From Pseudanabaena sp. PCC 7367 (GTDB lineage: Bacteria; Cyanobacteriota; Cyanobacteriia; Pseudanabaenales; Pseudanabaenaceae), in assembly GCF_000317065.1 (NCBI RefSeq), contig NC_019701.1, forward strand, positions 248,001 through 312,000: a DNA stretch of 64,000 bases. Direction: 5' to 3'. Positions within the stretch are counted from its first letter, which is position 1; each line of letters opens with the position of its first letter. Below, in pieces: positions 3,307 through 25,972 of this stretch. Below the pieces are notes generated by a model, which searched no databases, was not told where the DNA came from, and was given only the letters and a program-made list of their open reading frames with translations. A program made the translations under genes and the position numbers.

Positions 3307-6300
3307 TTAGTTAATCACGTAGTTGGGAGGGGTACCCACAGGACAAGTAGCAGGTCTAAATTGTCCTGCGATCGCCGGTTCAACGTAGTCTTGAGCCTCA
3401 GCATCAGGTCCCTGGCCAGTCACAGTATCCACATCGAGGGTACCTGGCTGATAGGCACAGAGCAACGATTGGACAAACGGATCATCACGATCGACTTCCC
3501 TAAAGAACTCGTTTGGATCGGGCACTGCGGTTGAGAACCGTTGCGCAAACAAGTCAGGCGATTGGGTCAGCAGGCCAACATCATAACCCCACAGGCGATT
3601 GGGCGGGTTATAGAACGGAATCCGCTGCGTCGTACGCGACTGATAGAACCGCCAGAAGTTACTCAATGGCCCATTCACGTGGTTGGGATCGGTAAACAAT
3701 GTCTGCATCCCATTGCGGGTAAATAGACCCAACGCATCAGTCGCTGGATAGGGTGCAGTGGCCGAGAATGGCGCAGTGGCAAATCGACTACGGAAGGACT
3801 GAATAAACCCACCATTAATTTGGATGTTGGTATCAGCCCAGTTCTCAATGAACCTGACGAAGTTGTGCAGGCCACCACCGGTTTCACCAGTAGTTGTGAC
3901 TGGCTGTGGGTTACCAAGATCAATCCCAGCGCCCGTATCAATCCCACCGGTGCTATTGCCATCGACTGCATTAACTGGATTCGTAGGATCTAGGTCAGAG
4001 GTTTGGTAGGTAACACCAGCGCGGGATGGGGTATTACCGGAGACAAAGTAGGCATTGACGATCGTGTCGCTGGCCTGCTCTGTCCATCTTCCACCCGTGG
4101 AGTTGATATATTGATCAAACTCCTGGGGCATCCGACTGCCAAGTCCATTATTGGTGGTCGGATTATCCTCTGGTGAATGCAGTTGAGTAACTGGCATCAT
4201 GATCGGTTCATCGGTCGAAGTTACCGCCGTGATCCAGGCATTGAACATTAAATCAGGTATCCCCGCCGGTGGCTGATCGTAGGTACTAAAGCCCAGGAAT
4301 CTGACCCCACGGAAAGAAGTACATCTTACTTCCATCCCTGGTGGTAAATCATCATCGGGGAGCGATGAATCAGCTGGTGCTGGTAGATTTAGACCCAGGG
4401 CCTCAAAGCGATCGCGATTACTTGTCAGGGGATTATTGCCCCCCAACGCAATCGGATAGGAGAGACAGCTACCGGCATTGTCATTGATCAATAGCTCGGT
4501 GGCATTAGCAGGAGTTGAACCGGATTCGATCGGGGTTAAGAAATTCCCCGCCATTACGGTGCCATTGCGAAGTCCTCTAAATTGCAACCTGTATTGTGGA
4601 TCAGTGCCGCTGATCGAGCCAGCAGTCTGCCTTGGCATCAACCAGTAGATATTATTGGGGCTGACCCCATCCAGTTGCATCTGCACACCATCAAAAATGA
4701 CGTTGGAGATATTGAGATTGCCGGCTGGGTTAGCCTGAGGTTCTGGCAACTTGATTACAAAAATGGGATCTTTTTGATCACCAGCTCGCAACGTGATACG
4801 AGCATCCCTAAAGAGCCGACCCTGGGTGATTCTGGCTGCATCCTGCTGTGCCGGCGTTGTAGTTAGTGGGTTCTCGTTTGTAAACGTATTAGGTAGCGTC
4901 AGGACATTTACCTGCCGATCGGCATTGGCAGTCCATTCTCCGACCAGACGGCGTTCTTCATCACCACCGACAAAGAAAGTACGGGTAGGGGCAACTGACC
5001 AGACACCTGTATTAGACAGATTACTCAACTTAGTATAAACATCATTGATTACTGTCCGCGTGCCGTCGGGGCAATTGCCAGACCGCATTTCTTCTTTTTC
5101 GGCCATGTAGTGACGATCTTCACCGTCATAACCACAGAACAGATAGGCCGATGCCGACTGAGAGTCTCTGACAATATTTGTACCACCGCCAGCACCAGCA
5201 TTTTCAGTCACTGGCAGGTTCAGATTGACTTGATTGGCAGGAATAGTAGGCGTAGTGCCATAGCCAAATGCAGTGTCTATGTCTGGGCAGGCAGATTTGA
5301 GCACATCATTACCAGAGATGACCATGCATTCGGCGCGCGGTAGCACATAACGATCGGGGCTGGATGGGCGATCGTTACGGTTCGTAGCGCCAGTGGTGAA
5401 GGCTTCAAATATGAATGGATGATTAGCAGGGTTATATCTAGCCATCCAGGAGCGACCCAGCCACATGTCAGTACTTTGAGTAGTGGTGGTATACCACAGA
5501 TTTCGAGGCTGGGGATTTGGTTCATTTTCTGAATCCCGATCCAAATCGTAGATCATCACCGTGTTACCACGACCATCACCTTGATTGCCAGCGAATAGGC
5601 CAGTGGGCGGTACGATCGGGAAGTTAGGTGCTCGATGTATCACCAAGTTAAGAGAATTAGGCGCTGCCTGCTCTTGCCAGGACTCGGTGTCATTATCATT
5701 AGAACCATTGGTTGGGTTGGGATCGAATTCCTCATTCGCATCAAACTGCCAAGGGTATGCTGCGGCAATCCGACTCGACAATTGAGTATTGAGTGGTGGC
5801 GCTACCATAGCGATCGGCATCCCATTGAACCCAGCCTGAGCCACGGTTGGGTATTCCACTGCACCGACTCCAATGTCTGGTGTTGGTGTTGGTGCCGGGG
5901 TTGGCGTTGGCGTTGGTGCTGGCGTTGGTGCCGGGGTTGGTGTTGGTGCCGGGGTTGGTGTTGGTGCCGGGGTTGGTGTTGGTGCCGGGGTTGGTGTTGG
6001 TGCCGGGGTTGGTGTTGGTGCCGGGGTTGGCGTTGGCGTTGGCGTTGGCGTTGGATTAGTGGTCTGACACAACGAACCTACATTGTCAAATGGTGGTTGT
6101 GTAGATACATCAGCATACCTATTCGAATTACCCGTAGTTAAAGGCGAATCAGGATTTGCCTGTCTGCCTCGGCTCAGGATTTTACCTCTGCGTCTGCCAG
6201 CACCACCTGTTCTAATCACAGGCACAGATGAAGGATTGTCAGAACTACCATCCTTCATTACCATCCAGAAATATTCATCATACTCACATAACCGATCTTT

Positions 6301-9300
6301 ATAGATCTGAACATTAATAGATATTGTGTTGTTGTAATTACTCTTTTGGTAAGCAGGATTGCTTGCATACGTAGCCGCATTAGGCCCCCATGCCAAGTAT
6401 TGACCATTAGGTGGATCAACTGGGAAGCTGGGGACTGGGGTGATTTCTGGCAAGGCAATAAAGTCTTGTGGTCCTTCCAGTTCGTGCACATTTACAGGAT
6501 CACCTGCTAATGCGGTCAATGGTGCAGCCGCAGGTTCATTATCAACTAGGTTGGTATAAGGAACAGTACCAGGTTTAGGATTACCTAACTGTGTGTCATA
6601 TGGAGGAATACTTTCACCAGGGCTAGCACCACCAGGACGATTACCTACACCATAGCCAGATGGGCAGGGCGAAAATAGTGCAAGAGCATCCTCAAAGGCA
6701 CATGTGAATGGTTGCACATAGTATGTTGTCCCTGGTGTAGTTTGCCCTCTCAAACGAATTTTAAACTGGATAGTGCGGTATAGCCCATCACTACCATAGT
6801 CTGTACCTTCAGTATCGGCGCGAGAATCGCCGCCCCTAAACTCAAAGTAAGGACGTTCGCGTGGTGGGCAGGGCACTGTGCCATAGGCGTTCCGGTAGTT
6901 ACCATCCTGGTGGAATGGAGCCTCGCGGGAAATCCCAAACACATTAGGATAGGTACGGCCACCGGCACCGGCACCATTGACGACCCCCAGGGCGATCGGG
7001 AACATTTGCCAATCTTCCGTGTTGCCGCCCTCACCCTGGTATAGATGATTCTGGCCAGAGAGATCGCCATCACTGTCGCAACGAGCCACAAATAGCAGCG
7101 ACTCATTCCCATCGTGGTAAATGTCGTCATAGCGCAAGAACGAGAATCTTCTGGCAAACCGTTGATCCTGCTCATCGATCCATCGGGGGGCAGCGACATT
7201 AGTACCTGCTTCCCTCATACCAGTGGTGCCAGCATAGTCCTTGACCCAGTCCTGGGGTTCGCATTCTGAAACCGGCAGCTTGCGGCAGATTTCCATGCCG
7301 TATTCATGCACGTTCTCACGGCGCTGGATCGGTGTGACACCATTGGCATTAAAGGTGCTGCGATTGTTGCCTGGGTATTCGTCGGCTACATCAACCCAAT
7401 TGGCACTGGTGACAAAGTTGTTATTGAAGAAGCCATTCTTGAGCCTTGCCTTGGCAGCAGGACTGAGAATTTCTCGATCGAAACTACTGCCAGGTGAGTA
7501 GGGATCGCTCTGGTCATTATAAACAGAGGTGTCCTGGTTATTACGTAGGTCAAAGTCACCATCACTACGGAAGCCGTCATTGGAGGCCGCCGAAACGATC
7601 GACACCGCATCAGAGATGATCGTGGCCGGTCGCCATTCATCACCATTAGTACAGTTAACATTTGAACCAGGGCGGCAGGCAAAGTCAGGATTCAGGCCGT
7701 AATCTGGCGGGGTGCCATTATTACGGGTATAGAAGTTGCCCCAGTCTGCGGCCAGCGCAGTATTAAATTCCTCTTGGGTATGCAGGTTGAAGTCGCCCTT
7801 AACGTATAGCGGCAAGTTAGAGACCATGATCAGCCCTTTCTCACCCTCCGTGGCAGTAGTCACCGCAGGTTGACCAGTACCAGTACCACGCCACAAGCGT
7901 TGACCATCAACCAGGCGAATACCATTGGGACGACGGGTCGGGTCTAAGAGGAAGTCAGTTGGACTGAGCGCTTCGCGGGTAGCCTGAATCGTATTAGTAT
8001 CGCTGAGATCCCTGAGTGCATCATCACGAGTGGCATAGACAATGCCACTGTAGGGTAATAAATATTCAGTGGCGACCCCACTATTATTACCACCAGCTAC
8101 AGTCTGTCCCCGCAGCAGGTTCATATCGATGTCGGTAACCCGAATCTCCAACGGTTGGCGCTGTTCGATCTCAAGGTCATAATTCACCGAGTCAAGCTCA
8201 GCTAATGATTCACGGCGATTGATTGCCTTGATTTCTCTACCATCGAGGAATGCAGCTTCCTTGAATGTGCCGTGGGGAACAGCCGCATTAGTCGGCGCAA
8301 TCGCACCACTGAGAATTTGCAGTGAACAAATCGTAGAATCGATCGCGCTTTGGTTAGCCAGGGATAGATTCACGCCGTTGGCAGCATTGGCTAGAGCCTG
8401 GCGCAAAGGCTCATTCACTAAGCGGCCATTGGGGAATACCAGATTAGCCTGGAAATAAAGCTGATTGAGAATACTACCACCACCTGGTGCTGCTGCTGTC
8501 GTTGGTGAGAACAAGCCATCCGCATCAGGAGCAGTTACTGCACCGAGCGCAGCGGCAGTGGTAGTGGGCGGGCCATAGCTAATCCCGTTATTAGATCGAC
8601 CTTGAGCAGATGAGCCAGGACCAGGATTGGTGCCGTCGTAGGTGGGCAGGCCAGTTTGGTTCTGGGCTGTCTCTGGAGTTGAGTTGTCGTAGTAAGCACT
8701 GACACAGGCGATCGGTGCCTGATAGGTGCCAGGGATCGCTGGATCATAGGCGCTATTTTTGTAGTGGTAAACCGCGATCGCCCGCATTTGGAAATGGCCA
8801 TTGCGCTGATCGCCAGTAGCAGGATCATTAACCGCGTTATTGGCACCTAATAGTGCACCGCCATCCGTAGCAGCAGCCCAGCGGCCATTGCGATCTAATC
8901 GACCATTACCATTAATATCTTCACCGGGATCAAGAACCCCATTAGGATTTGTATCTTCAGTCAAGATACGATCGGGAGCCCCTGGATCAAACAATAAATA
9001 AGGCCGCCATGCCGATCCATCCCAGCGCACTGCACCGGTCATTGGCATCGTGTCAGGCCAGACTACCGTAAATGCACTTTCATTGATATTCGGTGTAACA
9101 GGACTATTAAGTACATTTGGTGCCTGCGGCAGGAAGGTGTCAGCCGGATTTGGATCATAAACACCAGCGCTGGTGACTACCCGTAGACCACCAGTGACTG
9201 GGAAGGACTGGGGATTAGTATCAGTTGCTTCGCCAGGGCCTGCGCTGGGATCATCAGCCGCATTACGTTCCCAGAAACCACTTCGACCAGGGTCACCCAA

Positions 9301-11424
9301 GTCAACCAGGGTACTGATCTGGGTGGTGCGATAGCGTTCTCGTTTTTCGGGAATACCACCAAATTCATCCCACTCGATCGAGCCAACTGTAGCACCCACA
9401 AAGTTGCGAGCACCAGAAGTGCCTGTACCACCGACGAATTCAGGATTACCACCACCATCCAGACGGTACCATAGACCAGGCAGGTTATTTCCAGCCACAA
9501 TCCGATCGCCCAGGAATTCTTCAGTGCCAGCGCCATTTTGAACCGTTGGCTCGGTGGCCGGCAGATTAACTAATGCGCCCGTACCATTAATGGTGAGGCC
9601 ATTACCATCAGCGGGTAAACCATAGGCGATTGTGGGATCATAGGGGCTATAGCTACCAGCCGTGGCCGGTGGCAGCACCCAGTCCAATGGTGGTGAGAGG
9701 AAGGTAGCGCTATTGGGGAAAGCACTGAGGATATTAGCAACCGTACATTCGTTGCCAGCGCAATTACTGCTATAGAAAACACTGGCAGTATTAAGGGTGC
9801 CATCACCAAAGGGTACTTCTGCAAAAGGCACTTTGCGAGTACGGTTGCGGAAATAGCGATCGTACTCAATTTGATAGGCATCGGGAATACTGAGGCTAGG
9901 ATCTTCCGTTTGCAGAGCGGCAACGGCATCAATTAGTTCCTGGGGATCGGAGTTAGAGCCTAGCGGCGTAACTGGTGCTCCAGCCGCATAATTCCAGCGG
10001 GAGGGGGCAAAAGCAGCCTGCACCAGCATATTAAGTCGCTGATTATAGGCACCATCATTGAAACCAGCCTCTGCACCAGGATTAGTCACAGTTTGGTCAG
10101 TGCCAGTAAAAGGAATTACCCCACCGGCAGTAGCAAGGGGATTGATGCCAGCACCCTTAAACAGGTGGAAGCTGGCTCCTTGAAGCGAAGTCAAATCAGG
10201 AGTTAGTGCATCACCATTGATTACATTCCCTGCCACCAGCACCTTAGCATTATCTTCTTCGTAATAGCAGGAGCGGGGGTCACTAACCTGATAGATATCG
10301 ATCGGGTTGGTGGCGTTGGCAGCACCGATCATCAGGTTACTGTTGGTAAACACGCGACCATTGAGCCGGAAAGCTCTGGGTCTGGCTAGTTCTAGATCAC
10401 TCTCAAACCATACCGCGTTGTTGTTCAATGGGGTACGCGATCGGTCTTGTTGCAGTTCCAGAGCCGAGATCGAGGAATTACCCTGGATCACCTCATACTG
10501 ATTAACATCAAAAGCATCAGAATTGAAAGCTGGATCGCCGCTGACCGTTGGGGCATCCACCAGGTTGGTAAGTTGACCGGGCGTAATATCAGAGGTAATC
10601 GGGATTGTGGTGGCAAAGATAAAGAAGCTTTTCTTCAAACGGTTACCCGCAGCTTCCCAACCACCACCAGCGGCACCGGTTCCAGCGGCAGCAGCCTGGG
10701 CACAGATGTTTGAGTTGGCACTTTCATCCATCGGTGGTGTTCTGGATTCCAGCACACTGACCGGGCGGCCTGCTTGTCTGGCCAGGGCAGGCGATCGAAA
10801 CTGAATCGAATAGATGCCAAATGTATCGAATCGGCCATTACCATCGGTGTCAACCGGGAAGCGCCAGACCGAGTTTAAAATTTCCTCTGTCCCTTGGTCA
10901 GCACTAAAGCCATCACCTAGATCGATTTGGGTATCACCGTCAAGACTAGCTACAGTTTGGAGGCGTGTTTCATCGGCAAAAGTATATCGCCTATTTTCGA
11001 GAGTAGTACCAAGTGCGCCATCGCTGGGTAAGCCGCGACCGAGGATAGGGTCATTCAACAACTGCTCAATTTTTGCCCTGGCCCGATCGACGATCGGCGT
11101 AGCCGCATTTCTAAACGCATCTTCAACCCGTTGATTAGCGGCAGTTGTGGCTCGTTGGGTGGCTCTACCGACCATCACCACCACTAACAGGGTGACAACG
11201 GTAGTGACCATTACCGTAACTGGCAACACAAACCCCCTCTGCCTGCCCGATCGCGGCACATTAGTACGACTCTGACTCAGCAAAGTACGCACAAACCGAC
11301 GACTCAGGCGTAGGGGGCTGCCAGTACGATTCAGCCAATCCCTGAGTTTGGCAATCAACTGCGCAAAGAATTGTTGGATCTTCCTACGAGTATTTTCAGT
11401 GTCTCTCCGGCGCTGCTTGGACAT
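3307..11424 (-). CDS. hpsA: Giant HpsA-like hormogonium polysaccharide protein
   Basis: This 2705-residue protein begins with a basic cytoplasmic segment and then one membrane helix at residues 65-88, preceded by RQRG and FVLPVTV. That is a prepilin-like start without the +5 Glu, followed by an Ala-rich heptad stretch containing RAKAKIEQLL; this N-terminus is what I associate with HpsA. The exterior part is Asn/Gly/Asp-rich with Ca-binding-like acidic loops (near residues 190 and 825-845, the latter [18 protein letters not shown]) and a Pro-Thr-Ala linker at about 1788-1850. The ATG has a GAGGGG ribosome binding site. It heads the cluster with hpsB, C and D. The protein seems longer than HpsA proteins I know. 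HpsA is required for polysaccharide secretion and motility in Nostoc; the biochemical role is unknown. Confidence 0.72.
5927..6034 (-). repeat. 18-bp tandem repeat coding for Pro-Thr-Ala linker
   Basis: Six consecutive 18-bp units start at 5927, 5945, 5963, 5981, 5999 and 6017, with degenerate copies on both sides (about 5870-6053). In the HpsA-like gene they encode a PTPAPT-type hexapeptide, about 60 residues of stiff extracellular linker in all. The unit is a whole number of codons, so copy-number change would keep the frame. The opposite strand reads as Gly-Val repeats, which gives false open frames. Confidence 0.9.
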
Positions 11425-14728: not shown

Positions 14729-15622
14729 ATGACTTCATTTTCAGAGAGATTAGGCATAGAACCAGTTGATAGAACGATACAGATAGAAGGTGTTAACAAA
14801 AAATTAAAGACAGATTTATGGAATGCCTTTGCAGAATTTTACTGGTCGGGGGCACGGATACATAGCAAGATTAATCTTTATGATGCCTATAAAGAATTTC
14901 ATCAAAACTATGAAACTGATTATGGAAATTATCTTTTTGTAGTGTTTGAGTTATGGACTAACTTCTTTATGAATGCCGTTGACGATGGTCCATTAAAAGT
15001 GGGTGATTGGAGCAAAAAAATATACAAGCTTTACGATAATCTAGAGTGGAATGAGGTTTTCGATTTCATAGAATTTATTCCTCGTCATGATAGAGATTTA
15101 GAGCGTGGCAAAGAATTTCGTGATTACTGTAATGTGATTTTAGATAGAGGATTTTCAGCCTATAGATTTGTAGGAGATATAGTAGCCCCGATTACTTTTG
15201 AACAAAATAGTAAAGAAATTGAGATGGCAATGGGCTATTCAGAGGCACTCCAGCCCGTATCAAACCATGTTGAGCGCGCATTGAAATTCACGTCGGATCG
15301 AAAATCTCCGGATTTTGCAAATTCAATTAAAGAATCTATAAGTGCTGTGGAAGCTATTTGCAGGAGGATTGCTGGCAGAGAAGATCTAACACTAGGCAAT
15401 GCTCTAATAAAAGCTATGGATATTCTAGATTTAGATCCTAATTTAGCTGAAAGCATCAAAAAAGCTTATAAATATACCTGTAATTCTGGGGGGATACGTC
15501 ATGCAGAAAAGGAAGGCGATAATATCCCAGAGTTTGAAGATGCCCAATTCATGCTGGTATTTTGTTCATCGATTGTCAATTATCTGACAGAAAAGGCACG
15601 CAAAGCAGGGATTGAATTATAG
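14729..15622 (+). CDS. AbiJ-like abortive-infection protein
   Basis: The protein has 297 residues. The first 130 or so resemble the AbiJ N-terminal domain type 4 fold class (aromatic-rich, LWNAFAEFYW). The C-terminal 100 residues strongly recall the conserved AbiJ C-terminus: IKESISAVEAICRRI, then LGNAL, then SGGIRHAEKEG, then DAQFMLVFCSSIVNYL. AbiJ-type proteins act in phage abortive infection, and their C-terminal domain is HEPN-like; I do not see a textbook RxxxxxH motif, only RH. The gene is AT-rich with no CGATCG site, unlike both neighbours. It sits alone 38 bases before argH. It is probably a horizontally acquired defence gene; its mechanism is unknown. Confidence 0.68.
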   Translation: MTSFSERLGIEPVDRTIQIEGVNKKLKTDLWNAFAEFYWSGARIHSKINLYDAYKEFHQNYETDYGNYLFVVFELWTNFFMNAVDDGPLKVGDWSKKIYKLYDNLEWNEVFDFIEFIPRHDRDLERGKEFRDYCNVILDRGFSAYRFVGDIVAPITFEQNSKEIEMAMGYSEALQPVSNHVERALKFTSDRKSPDFANSIKESISAVEAICRRIAGREDLTLGNALIKAMDILDLDPNLAESIKKAYKYTCNSGGIRHAEKEGDNIPEFEDAQFMLVFCSSIVNYLTEKARKAGIEL

Positions 15623-21373: not shown

Positions 21374-23404
21374 TTAATTGGGACAATCGAGCGTTGCCCT
21401 GGTAGCCCTGCGTTGCTCTGGAGATTCCGCAAAAGTTTGTCCCGCTGCAATTTTACAAAAATAAGTTTTGCTAGTATCCGCTAAATTCACCACATCCGTA
21501 AAATCAGCCCCATCAATACTCGCTAGCTGATTCACATCCGTACCGCGTAAATTGGCTCCACTCAAATTTGCCCCAATTAAATTCGCCTGGGTCAAGTCCG
21601 CTGAGCTTAAATCCACCTCTCGCAAGTCGGCATAGTTGAGATTCGCTAATTTTAAATTTGCCGATCGTAAGTCGGCCAGCAATAGTACCGCTGCTTCCAG
21701 TTGGGCATTCTCTAGCTCTGCTGCACTTAAATTACTTTCCTGCAAATTTGCCTTCAATAAATTGGCATCATTCAAATTAGCCAGCAACAAATTAGCCGCA
21801 CTGAGATCGGCCAACGAAAGATCGGTTTGGCTCAGATCCGCCCGCATCAATTCTGCACCGCGCAACACCGCAAAATTAAGATCGGCCTGTTTCAAATTAG
21901 CCCGCAATAGCCGCGCCCCGGTTAAATTCACCTCCGACATGATTGCATTGGTCAGGTTGGCTTCGGTTAGGTCGGCACCGGAAAAATCCACACCGCGTAA
22001 ATCTGCGCCTGTTGCGATCGCCCCAGTTAAGTTCGCGCCGCCCAATCTGGCATCACTGAAGTCAGTTTCGGAGAGCAGGGCATTTTGCAAGTTAATCTCG
22101 TTTAACTCTGCGCCGCTGAGAATTTCACCGCTGAGATCGACATTGGCAAAGTCTCGTTCGCCCTCTGCATAGGCACTCAACAATTCGGCGGCGGTGATTG
22201 GTGCTAATACAATTTCTGGATCATTATTTGCATTTGGGCTGGGAGCGGGATTAGATGTGGCAGTCGAATCGGTTGCGTCAGGATTAGTCTCGCTATTAGT
22301 GGGCTGGCCAGGACTGGGTTGAGTAGGGATCGAACCACGATTACTAACGCGATTACTCAGCGTACTGATCACGATCGTAGCCATCAGGGCACTGAGCCCC
22401 AGGGTTAAACCCACCACCGCAGTGAGCATCAACCATTGCGATCGCGGTAGGCTTGCGCTGCCAGTTTTAAGCGTTTGCAAGTAATGGCCTGATTTGAGGC
22501 GTTGCCATAGTCCAGGTGGCTCCACCACGATCATATCGCCCCGACAGCGGCGGATCAGTTGCGATCGTAATTTTTTGGTGGCCGGGTCTTCGATCGTAGC
22601 GATCGATTGAAATACCGGTGATGATTCCGGCTCTTTGAAGTCATCCTGCCGAAAAATCAGGTTCTTATTGTCTTCGTGGAACGATTGCCAGAGTTGCGGT
22701 TGCTGCGCCAGGGCATGGAGCGAGAGGGAAATTACATCAAAGGAAAACTCATCCACCGATTCATCAAAGTCATGGGGCGATCGGGCGGGTGCTTGATAGT
22801 TGGGGTGTCCGGTTTCGATCGGTGGGTTGCCCCTCAGCGCTGGCACATACATGCCGTCATAATCAACCAGCTTTAATTCACCACCATTGGTGACCATAAT
22901 GTTGCCATGCTGCAAATCACCGTGGCCAATCCCGGCCGATCGCAGGTCTGATTTTAATTGCTTAAGCTTTTGATCCAGGCTTAGTAACTCTTTGGCATCA
23001 TTAATATGCTCACCAATATAGAGATCTAATTCCTGGCCGTCGATCCAATCCATTTTCAAAATTGGATACCATTGCCCCTGCACCAGAATGCCATGATCAA
23101 TAAATTCAAAATCCACCAGATAGGGCAAATTAGACTGCCGCAGATGATCGCCAATTCTGGCATAGCGCTCTTGCACATCAAACTGGGGTGCCCTGGTGAA
23201 GCACCGCACCGCCCATGATTGCTCTTGATTGCAAAGTTTATAAACCGTGGCAAAGTTACCCGACCACAGCAACATGCGGCCGCGCTGGTTTTTGGCCGGA
23301 TGCGATCGCCGCAACTGTTCGTCTTGAAAACAGATCTGCGGATTTTGCACCGCCGCGGTGAAATCAATGTTGAGGGGCCAACTTTCGGAAATCATGACCT
23401 TCAT
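21374..23404 (-). CDS. YegI-type protein kinase fused to TM and pentapeptide repeats
   Basis: Residues 45-290 are a divergent Ser/Thr kinase: the Gly loop is SGNFATVYK, the beta-3 strand is WAVRCF (Arg where most kinases have Lys, as in this family), the catalytic loop is HGDLQHGN (161-168) and the metal loop is VDYDG (180-184). This HGDLQHGN/DYDGMYVPAL pattern is typical of TerY-P/YegI-associated kinases. A single membrane helix at 324-347 and a Pro/Ser/Asn linker lead to about 40 pentapeptide repeats (415-635) and a short Cys-containing tail, predicted outside the membrane. The gene starts 15 bases after the PP2C phosphatase gene and is surely co-transcribed with it. Catalytic Asp and Asn are present, so activity is plausible. 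The pentapeptide fusion is the unusual feature. Confidence 0.87.
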   Translation of the reverse strand: MKVMISESWPLNIDFTAAVQNPQICFQDEQLRRSHPAKNQRGRMLLWSGNFATVYKLCNQEQSWAVRCFTRAPQFDVQERYARIGDHLRQSNLPYLVDFEFIDHGILVQGQWYPILKMDWIDGQELDLYIGEHINDAKELLSLDQKLKQLKSDLRSAGIGHGDLQHGNIMVTNGGELKLVDYDGMYVPALRGNPPIETGHPNYQAPARSPHDFDESVDEFSFDVISLSLHALAQQPQLWQSFHEDNKNLIFRQDDFKEPESSPVFQSIATIEDPATKKLRSQLIRRCRGDMIVVEPPGLWQRLKSGHYLQTLKTGSASLPRSQWLMLTAVVGLTLGLSALMATIVISTLSNRVSNRGSIPTQPSPGQPTNSETNPDATDSTATSNPAPSPNANNDPEIVLAPITAAELLSAYAEGERDFANVDLSGEILSGAELNEINLQNALLSETDFSDARLGGANLTGAIATGADLRGVDFSGADLTEANLTNAIMSEVNLTGARLLRANLKQADLNFAVLRGAELMRADLSQTDLSLADLSAANLLLANLNDANLLKANLQESNLSAAELENAQLEAAVLLLADLRSANLKLANLNYADLREVDLSSADLTQANLIGANLSGANLRGTDVNQLASIDGADFTDVVNLADTSKTYFCKIAAGQTFAESPEQRRATRATLDCPN

Positions 23405-23419
23405 AACGTTAAGACAACC

Positions 23420-24727
23420 TTAGGTTACGCTAAGGTGCAGCATGGTGGTGTCGTCATTTTGCAACAGGTGCCGATCGCGCAAATGCTCGACCCAATCGCC
23501 AAAGGCATGGCGATCGCTAAATTTATTTAATTCCTGCCAGGGATTGGCATTCGCCTCAATTTGCCTCAAGATCCAACTGGCTAAGGCATCGGTGACTAGA
23601 TAAAATTCGTCGCCCACCACGGCGCGATCGCAGAGATGTTTAATGGTGGGCAGGGTCTCGGCATTTAGCAATGAGCCAACCAGACTGGAACGGTGGCTAA
23701 ATTGACTAGCATGATCGATCGGAAAGCTGTGCAAAAGTTGACCATCTCTGACCACAAACAGACAAGAATCACCGATCGCCATGGCGCGCCAATAATTGTT
23801 TGCGTCTATTTCTAATCCTAGCAAAGTAGCGAACGTGCCTGCTTCAGCCTTGCGCTTAGCATACCAGACCAGCTCTTGTGCGAGAATCCATTTTGCCCAG
23901 TTTAGTTGCAGCGGCATCAACCAGTTACTTAGATTACTTAGATTATTTAGATTATTTAGATTATTTAGTTGCTGATGATTTTTACCCATCGGCTCAGTTG
24001 AGTCAGTCAGTTCGCCATTGTGATTCACTAATTGATCGCTTTGATCGGCATTAACAAAATCCAAAAAACTTGATGGCTGCAAATCAGGCCGATCGCCATT
24101 ATTAAGATCAACAGCATTATTTGCCCCCAAGATTTCGCCAGAATCAATCCCCCTTTCACGATCAGGCCAAATTGGTACATCTACAAACCTGGTCACCAAA
24201 TCCTGTGCCCATTTTTGCGCGAATGATGATTCCGTCGCGCCATCGGCGATCGCAAAACAACTCGATCGTTCATTCTGTTGCCAGGCATAGGCATCTTCGC
24301 ATTCAGACCTTGTATTCCCAGCCTTAGCCACGCTATAGCAACTAACTAAGCGGATGTTGCTGGCGATCGGCAGATTATTAGTAGTGTCTGGGGCGATCGC
24401 CTGGGTGGGCATGTTGCTTTGGTCTTTAGTTTGAGAGTTATTGAAGTTGATTTGGTTGGGATGGGGATCGATCGCTAAAGAGCCTAACACAGTTGATTGA
24501 TTGGGGCTAGCGGTGTTTTTTGCTTCACCTTTCTTAGCAATTGAATCACTTCCAAAATTACTAGCTTGATTTCCTTGCTGGTTCTGCTCATTAATTCGAG
24601 CAATAGTTTGCTGGTTAGGGCTATACAAAGAAGACCGCCCCGGTGCAGCATTGTTCCCATCAGCATTGGCGGAGCGATCGCCACCCCCCAAACGACCATA
24701 GATATAGTCAAATAGACTCTTAAACAT
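23420..24727 (-). CDS. PP2C-like phosphatase of the vWA/PP2C/kinase triad
   Basis: The N-terminal 125 residues are polar low-complexity sequence. The PP2C core follows (about 128-430): CEDAYAW, then FAIADGATESSFAQKWA (158-174) matching the DGA metal motif, IGDSCLFVVRDG, and GDEFYLVTDALASW carrying a further metal-binding Asp. An insert at about 205-275 is rich in Asn/Asp/Leu and includes the NNLNNLNNLSNLSN repeat. It belongs to the YegK/PphC type that pairs with a vWA protein and a kinase. It would reverse phosphorylation by the downstream kinase. The gene is 15 bases upstream of the kinase and 402 bases downstream of the vWA gene. Confidence 0.85.
   Translation of the reverse strand: MFKSLFDYIYGRLGGGDRSANADGNNAAPGRSSLYSPNQQTIARINEQNQQGNQASNFGSDSIAKKGEAKNTASPNQSTVLGSLAIDPHPNQINFNNSQTKDQSNMPTQAIAPDTTNNLPIASNIRLVSCYSVAKAGNTRSECEDAYAWQQNERSSCFAIADGATESSFAQKWAQDLVTRFVDVPIWPDRERGIDSGEILGANNAVDLNNGDRPDLQPSSFLDFVNADQSDQLVNHNGELTDSTEPMGKNHQQLNNLNNLNNLSNLSNWLMPLQLNWAKWILAQELVWYAKRKAEAGTFATLLGLEIDANNYWRAMAIGDSCLFVVRDGQLLHSFPIDHASQFSHRSSLVGSLLNAETLPTIKHLCDRAVVGDEFYLVTDALASWILRQIEANANPWQELNKFSDRHAFGDWVEHLRDRHLLQNDDTTMLHLSVT
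23927..23971 (-). repeat. 9-bp tandem repeat inside the phosphatase gene
   Basis: Five 9-bp units of A(C/T)TTAGATT, the last one imperfect, encode a tripeptide (Asn-Leu-Asn/Ser) repeat within the low-complexity insert of the PP2C protein. The frame is maintained in every unit. Confidence 0.85.
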
Positions 24728-25129
24728 CAGCTAACCCTATCCACCAAACCGATCGCCAGCTATTTAATATCCCCCGCCGATCTCCTGCTTACTTTGCTGA
24801 CTGATTAAATCATGAGCTAAATCACGATCGGAGACTTTGGCGCTGATCCTACCTCAATTTCTAATTAGCTGTTAGCTTAATTCAAACCTAAGCCGATCAG
24901 CCGACTGATACTGCTGGTTATCCAGTTTGAGATTGCGTCTGGCTCAAACAGCAGCCCAACAATCCAAGATGTTGTTGTTAGAAGGGTGAAGGCTGATCGC
25001 TCTTGTAAGCAATATTAAATTCCCTCGATCGTCCATCTCCCATAGCCACAATGCAATAAGCGGGTCAATCACTTGGAGCAGGATTATTTAACTGAACTAT
25101 ATAACTGCAGCAAAATGCGACAGCCAACA
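24728..25129. other. Spacer between vWA and PP2C genes
   Basis: This is a 402-base gap inside an otherwise functional triad. It contains a compound inverted repeat at 24911-24954: CTGCTG and CAGCAG at the ends, CTGG-TTAT-CCAG and TTTGAG/CTCAAA inside. It could be a transcript processing site or part of a separate promoter for the PP2C-kinase pair. I see no open frame that looks coding. Confidence 0.35.
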
Positions 25130-25972
25130 TTAGCGCAAATTATCTACTCTTGTACCAATATCCAGAAACTGAATCAACTTGACTGGATCGGCATTAAACA
25201 TAAAGGCGCGGGAATCGGCCGACACCTTGTAGCTCTCATTCTCAGCCGCTTTCTGGGCAGAACTGGGCAGAATACTAGAAAGCTCATACATTAACTTGGC
25301 ATAGGGATCATTTAGCACTTCTGCATGATTAGGGAAGCAAACCGGAGCCGCATACTCAGAGGAAAGATGGATGTTGTAGAGCAGCACATTGCCATCATTG
25401 GTATGTAGTTGCTTGAGGTTTTCAGCTTCTTCGCGGGGATCGCCATCGGTGGACTCGCCATCAGTAATATTAATTACCGTCGGTGGATAGCTATTGGGGT
25501 GTTGATCGACCCATTCCGCCAGAATCGTGTGGGCAAAATCAAATACACCACACATCGCCGTACCGCCATGGGCCATTGGCTTGAACCAAACCGGAAAATC
25601 ATTGGCAACTTCGATCATCCCGCCCATACCGTCTGGCACTTCATGAATGCGATTTTCTAGCTCAGATGGGTTTTCGTAAATTGTACTAATCGGGGCGATC
25701 GTCCGGCCAGAGAGCGCACCATTAAAAGCAGGACTCACGTCGCTACTATAGCCAATTACCCCCACATCAAAATAATCATAGATCTCATTGCCCTTCACAC
25801 AACGCTGACCAAGGGAGTCGATCAAACGATTTACAGCATCAGCCACTGCCTGTGCCTTTTGGGTCTCAGGGCTGCCCTGCCCGCTAAAACTGTCAGCCAT
25901 CGATCCAGAACGATCGATCAAGAACAGAAAGCAACTTGGATTGCGGCGGCTAATTTCGGCGGTATAGGGCAT
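25130..25972 (-). CDS. von Willebrand factor A protein (YegL/TerY-like)
   Basis: This is a 280-residue single-domain vWA protein without signal peptide. The MIDAS metal site is complete: Asp20-Arg-Ser22-Gly-Ser24, Thr138 (HGGT) and Asp171 (NITDGEST). Proteins of this type (YegL in E. coli, TerY relatives) occur with a PP2C phosphatase and a YegI-like kinase and are proposed to act as adaptor or chaperone in a phosphorylation circuit. Here both partners follow downstream on the same strand. The domain is cytoplasmic. Family membership is very clear; the role is inferred from context. Confidence 0.88.
   Translation of the reverse strand: MPYTAEISRRNPSCFLFLIDRSGSMADSFSGQGSPETQKAQAVADAVNRLIDSLGQRCVKGNEIYDYFDVGVIGYSSDVSPAFNGALSGRTIAPISTIYENPSELENRIHEVPDGMGGMIEVANDFPVWFKPMAHGGTAMCGVFDFAHTILAEWVDQHPNSYPPTVINITDGESTDGDPREEAENLKQLHTNDGNVLLYNIHLSSEYAAPVCFPNHAEVLNDPYAKLMYELSSILPSSAQKAAENESYKVSADSRAFMFNADPVKLIQFLDIGTRVDNLR

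Follow-up and report, generated by a model that had tools for sequence, protein, structure and literature searches.

In Pseudanabaena sp. PCC 7367, a TerY-P triad, a gene set whose function is, to our knowledge, poorly understood, contains a kinase that is anchored in the membrane and continues into a pentapeptide-repeat rod, an architecture that represents a novel form of an otherwise known triad. The three genes lie on the minus strand of the window, that is, the whole 64,000-nucleotide stretch of DNA analyzed here (positions 248001-312000 of contig C2 in the 4.89 Mb genome). The sequence-only reading that we followed up had named a vWA protein, a PP2C phosphatase, and a kinase at this locus, and the coordinates, Pfam, and the PADLOC models agree on all three. 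We assign a probability of about 0.5 to the interpretation that this triad operates as a receptor-like TerY-P phospho-switch, with the extracytoplasmic rod as its input.

The features of the locus, in window coordinates, are:
25130-25972, minus strand: TerY-type vWA protein, 280 aa (Pfam VWA, E 6e-7)
24728-25129, no strand: intergenic gap of 402 bp between the TerY and PP2C genes, TerY being upstream
23420-24727, minus strand: PP2C phosphatase, 435 aa (Pfam PP2C_2, E 8e-8)
21374-23404, minus strand: kinase-TM-pentapeptide fusion, 676 aa (Pfam Pentapeptide, E 4e-50; Pkinase, E 9e-8)
22535-23380, minus strand: kinase domain of the fusion, residues 9-290, with the HGDLQHGN catalytic loop and the DYDG metal site
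22349-22444, minus strand: membrane helix, residues 321-352 in the model (hydropathy and AlphaFold2)
22208-22348, minus strand: disordered Pro/Ser/Asn/Thr-rich linker, residues 353-399 (pLDDT ~30), unconserved
21485-22207, minus strand: pentapeptide-repeat beta-helix, residues 400-640, ~10 coils (Pfam and AlphaFold2)
21377-21484, minus strand: two-helix C-terminal cap with Cys650 and Cys674, Rfr32/At2g44920 type (structure and sequence match)

Components of the triad and the question of defence

Judged by its predicted components, a vWA protein with a MIDAS, a PP2C, and a kinase of the TerY-P type, the locus is a TerY-P triad, and this earlier assignment stands given that each of the three proteins matches its PADLOC TerY-P model. 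The vWA protein matches the TerY model over the whole model length (E 4e-100), and its MIDAS residues (D20-x-S22-x-S24, T138, and D171) occupy positions that are 98-100% conserved in 47 relatives. The PP2C protein, whose N-terminus carries an additional low-complexity segment and whose interior contains an insert, matches the TerY-P PP2C model (E 2e-30) and retains the metal-binding residues D145, D162-G163, D380, and D425/D426, the respective Asp positions being conserved, nearly invariantly, in 64 relatives. The kinase matches STK_OB (E 4e-72) at model positions 9-284 of 562 only; the other half of the model, positions 285-562, has no counterpart, and the TM-pentapeptide part stands in its place. 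The OB-fold or zinc-ribbon tail that is usual for TerY-P kinases was found in the PCC 7367 protein neither with the PADLOC model nor in the AlphaFold2 model. The PP2C and kinase genes are 15 bp apart and are therefore probably co-transcribed as a single transcript. The 402-bp gap between the TerY and PP2C genes contains no open reading frame of 90 aa or more and no convincing promoter, its promoter-like matches being fewer than those in shuffled sequence.

The PADLOC matches of all three proteins raise the question of antivirus function, given that TerY-P modules with OB-fold kinases are reported as stand-alone phage defence (PMC11090510). We consider it unlikely that the PCC 7367 triad is an anti-phage system of this kind: the kinase lacks the OB tail; the gene set is present in most genomes of the family, and in Pseudanabaena, the location of the PP2C-kinase pair is fixed and belongs to the core genome; and no widely shared extra partner gene recurs near the related triads. 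Membership in a defence island was considered and rejected, with 1 of 10 flanking proteins matching a candidate defence model, and no more. That protein is encoded at 14729-15622 of the window (PADLOC model PDC-S32, E 2e-88). Elsewhere in the window, positions 3307-11424 of the minus strand encompass an open reading frame of 2705 aa.

Membrane crossing, rod, and cap

The fusion protein contains a single hydrophobic segment (around residue 328, with a mean hydropathy of 2.1, the runner-up reaching 1.06), in agreement with the one membrane helix originally proposed, and the estimate of about 40 pentapeptide repeats was accurate as well: there are 41 uninterrupted pentapeptides, with L, F, M, or A at the centre, in residues 419-619. 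In the AlphaFold2 model, built on 21 orthologues, the rod has a pLDDT of ~95, and helices are predicted at residues 321-352 and, in the cap, at 643-654 and 662-672. Under VIA-align, the rod model superimposes on HetL with Z 34 (rmsd 1.0 over 224), and the last coils together with the cap (residues 536-674 of the model) superimpose on Rfr32 (2g0y) with Z 20.4 and an rmsd of 1.3 A over 128 residues. The cap sequence aligns with 3n90, the Arabidopsis thylakoid lumenal protein At2g44920, both Cys residues included. A disulfide holds the cap together in both 3n90 and Rfr32 (PMC8145042), and by analogy, we infer a Cys650-Cys674 disulfide in the kinase fusion. Downstream of the junction between kinase and TM, nearly all intact fusions have two Cys residues, which lie in the cap; a few have one more, within the TM. 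Rod length, register, and cap are kept in most of the family. Two stand-alone pentapeptide-repeat proteins of PCC 7367 have the same two-Cys cap, one with a signal peptide (C2:3653930-3654100) and one without an evident signal peptide (C2:23445-23630).

Summed over 21 orthologues, the 30 residues next to the TM contain 130 Lys and Arg on the kinase side vs 55 on the rod side, and the prediction is therefore a cytosolic kinase and a rod that is either outside or lumenal. All 21 family members have a single TM, with a membrane segment of at most 32 aa. Among related kinases, 30 of 53 have a longer hydrophobic stretch, mostly 45-50 aa, which suggests the hairpin expected to return the tail to the cytosol, and in most related triads, the single TM is replaced by such a hairpin-like anchor, or the tail is soluble. 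The far side of the membrane, which the sequence-only reading had predicted for the repeats, is supported as the place of the rod (periplasm or thylakoid lumen) by the charge bias, by a cap like that of Rfr32, and by a short TM that crosses once, although these features fall short of proof; in particular, the capped PCC 7367 protein that has no evident signal peptide implies that the cap alone is no proof of export.

Conservation in Pseudanabaenaceae and beyond

Because the fusion recurs in relatives across the family, a sequencing error or mis-fusion is rejected, and the stop codon between the kinase and the repeats that the earlier reading had named as a refuting finding is absent both in the window and in the relatives. 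Of the 38 Pseudanabaenaceae genomes, 32 encode the kinase. The TM-pentapeptide tail is present in all copies that were examined as far as the end, save one that is cut by an insertion sequence. In that fusion (G023:C1:3900000-3915000, locus L074), the rod is truncated, and the inserted sequence resembles an IS630-type transposase. Two other kinase copies run off contig ends. In the kinase clade of the fusions, the two entries that lack repeats stop where their contigs stop. TerY is found in 31 of the 38 genomes, namely, in 31 of the 32 that encode the kinase and in 0 of the 6 that do not, the sole mismatch being a draft genome of 750 contigs; the six genomes without the kinase lack PP2C as well. 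Thus, the earlier suggestion that co-occurrence of the fusion with vWA and PP2C genes be examined in relatives has been followed, and the genes do co-occur, but adjacency, which that reading had also implied, is not required. The three genes adjoin in PCC 7367 and in one other genome (G007); in Pseudanabaena (g4), PP2C and kinase are paired, and TerY is elsewhere in the genome, whereas in genera g6 and g7, the triad genes are on separate contigs. In most family genomes, TerY is not linked to the other two genes, which counts against the interpretation we favour. The genome counts overstate the co-occurrence if the genomes are taken as independent: on the rpoB tree, about 3 gains or losses, with weak support, explain the presence and absence of the set, which therefore seems to have been lost or gained together.

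In about 11 Pseudanabaena genomes, the PP2C-kinase pair is fixed between psbD-psbC and grpE-dnaK (gene names from reading the sequences). The triad with the fusion appears to be a core-genome, vertically inherited feature of the family and exemplifies a TerY-P module that has its permanent place in the core genome instead of a defence island. Among 386 genomes spanning the phylum, with at most 6 candidates scored per genome, at least 8 pass the kinase threshold of E 1e-20, and at least 4 of these belong to Pseudanabaenaceae. Next to TerY in Pseudanabaena, there are conserved genes for a GAF-cyclase, a response regulator, a vWA protein, and a zinc-ribbon-FHA protein (L026:10082-14347). We considered this FHA/vWA/cyclase cluster as an output module of the triad and rejected it for want of specific evidence, the FHA gene being present in 38 of 38 genomes, those without the triad included.

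Outside the family, among the best 80 of 571 loci, the vWA-PP2C-kinase order is also found in Planctomycetota, Chloroflexota, Bacillota, Myxococcota, and others (GTDB), and in the kinase tree of the same loci, the PCC 7367 kinase groups with kinases of such triads from many phyla. All pentapeptide tails among these 80 loci fall into one kinase clade together with Pseudanabaenaceae (99/91), and by this sequence-based computation, the kinase-pentapeptide fusions share one origin. The tails of the related kinases in these best 80 loci vary and include WD40, Sel1, zinc-ribbon-like CxxC, and a hairpin TM with an additional unknown domain. The nearest kinase outside the family within this set, from Microcoleus (L170), belongs to an intact triad and consists of a kinase, a single TM, and a short two-Cys domain; the latter gave no Pfam match and no credible PDB sequence match. 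Pseudanabaena SR411 has a second complete vWA-PP2C-kinase triad, in which the kinase is fused to a WD40 propeller (L040/L214, G015:C17). To judge from these sequences, the C-terminal feature of TerY-P kinases, be it a zinc ribbon or an OB fold, looks variable; tails are swapped among relatives, so that the kinase can be regarded as a plug for exchangeable C-terminal modules, the predicted module of PCC 7367 being a rod of the exported type.

Proposed working and known systems

In the kinase domain, the HGDLQHGN and DYDG motifs are intact, and compared to known structures with VIA-align, the N-terminal part of the model finds kinase folds, including GCN2 and WNK, at Z 12-14. However, the position of the beta-3 (VAIK) Lys is occupied by Arg67, and Arg is found at this site in 23 of 23 family members and in 50 of 64 outside relatives, an observation that counts against a signalling kinase and favours the alternative of a catalytically dead protein that would bind ATP and serve PP2C and TerY as a scaffold. 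We regard this alternative as a long shot. The catalytic residues Asp163, Asn168, and Asp181 are retained in all family members; Lys is present at the beta-3 site in the remaining 14 of the 64 outside relatives; and Lys117, invariant in all 87 sequences from within and outside the family, might substitute. WNK kinases, in which the equivalent of the beta-3 lysine is placed elsewhere, are among the best PDB sequence matches. In addition, E. coli YegI, a membrane kinase without conserved motifs, is reported to autophosphorylate (PMC13232886). Catalysis by the predicted kinase domain is plausible.

Under the receptor-like scenario, the N-terminal kinase would reside in the cytosol, one helix would cross the membrane, and the flexible linker would carry the capped, right-handed beta-helix rod of ~10 coils into the periplasm or the thylakoid lumen. 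When the rod touches a partner on the far side, or when the state of the envelope or lumen changes, the kinase could respond by altering its activity or oligomeric state, with PP2C reversing the phosphorylation as a reset and the MIDAS-bearing TerY acting as a metal-dependent adaptor or substrate, so that the kinase, phosphatase, and vWA proteins would make up a closed set for phosphorylation. The fusion, the single crossing, and the triad on which the sequence-only reading had built its transmembrane switch all hold up; the switch itself is still conjecture. Between relatives, only the C-terminal module is exchanged, whereas kinase, PP2C, and TerY are constant, which favours the rod as an input or address over an effector.

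The rod could, conceivably, be an anchor rather than a sensor, that is, a passive far-side scaffold by which the kinase is positioned at a region of the membrane or at a complex, with the signal entering on the cytosolic side via TerY and PP2C. Such a role is possible, even if we are inclined against it: pentapeptide rods are rigid and have few known ligands, the long, disordered linker seems a poor conductor of signals, and between orthologues, the repeats are less conserved (45-52% identity in most) than the kinase (61-72%), but the maintenance of rod length, register, and cap, and the C-terminus being the very part that changes between related triads, are what would be expected of an input module. 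A more specific possibility, which we rate as improbable, is a receptor kinase of the thylakoid lumen. Its rod would respond to a lumenal state, such as redox sensed via the disulfide of the cap or an assembly partner of a photosystem, and the signal would pass through the thylakoid membrane to TerY and PP2C. If this is true, the lumen has a Ser/Thr receptor kinase, and the Rfr32-type pentapeptide fold gains a function.

The phospho-switch with the rod as input can be set against several known systems. The TerY-P triads known from PMC11090510 have kinases with zinc ribbons or OB folds; they comprise the same three proteins (PADLOC TerY, PP2C, and STK_OB), the likeness of the kinases being confined to the kinase half, whereas the PCC 7367 protein has a TM, a linker, 41 pentapeptides, and a helical cap, and the Pseudanabaenaceae set is core-genome and apparently vertical. 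E. coli yegL-pphC-yegI (vWA, PP2C, and membrane Ser/Thr kinase) matches the triad in composition, in gene order, and in having all genes on one strand, and YegI, as described in PMC13232886, is a membrane-bound kinase paired with a PP2C, PphC, which is reported to dephosphorylate it. Nevertheless, YegI has two adjacent TM segments (393 and 417) that would return its tail to the cytosol; YegL matches the triad vWA profile weakly (E 6e-8), and neither YegI nor PphC matches the triad kinase or PP2C profiles. The kinases compare with an hhalign probability of 8.7% and a weak local alignment only; direct kinship with YegI was not demonstrated by these comparisons, the putative relationship is distant at best, and the label "YegI-type" previously given to the kinase is loose. 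The E. coli yegI gene adjoins the HSP70-family yegD, and the Pseudanabaena pair is near grpE-dnaK, possibly by coincidence.

In the literature searched, the founding TerY-P paper being outside that scope, we found no family-conserved TerY-P kinase that combines a single TM with a capped rod of pentapeptides. The cyanobacterial kinases of the SpkB group (slr1697, cbSTKII) likewise join a Ser/Thr kinase to C-terminal pentapeptides (PMC2176072); these are listed as STKs that pass a catalytic-motif filter and have mostly 2 Pfam pentapeptide units, and TerY and PP2C are unmentioned there. The lumenal proteins Rfr32 (2g0y/2f3l) and At2g44920 (3n90) share the beta-helix and the two-helix, two-Cys cap with the kinase rod but are free proteins, whereas a kinase is attached to the PCC 7367 rod. 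Almost nothing is known about what cyanobacterial pentapeptide proteins do (PMC8145042); by joining them to the TerY-P triad, the family-wide fusion connects two poorly understood entities and makes both testable.
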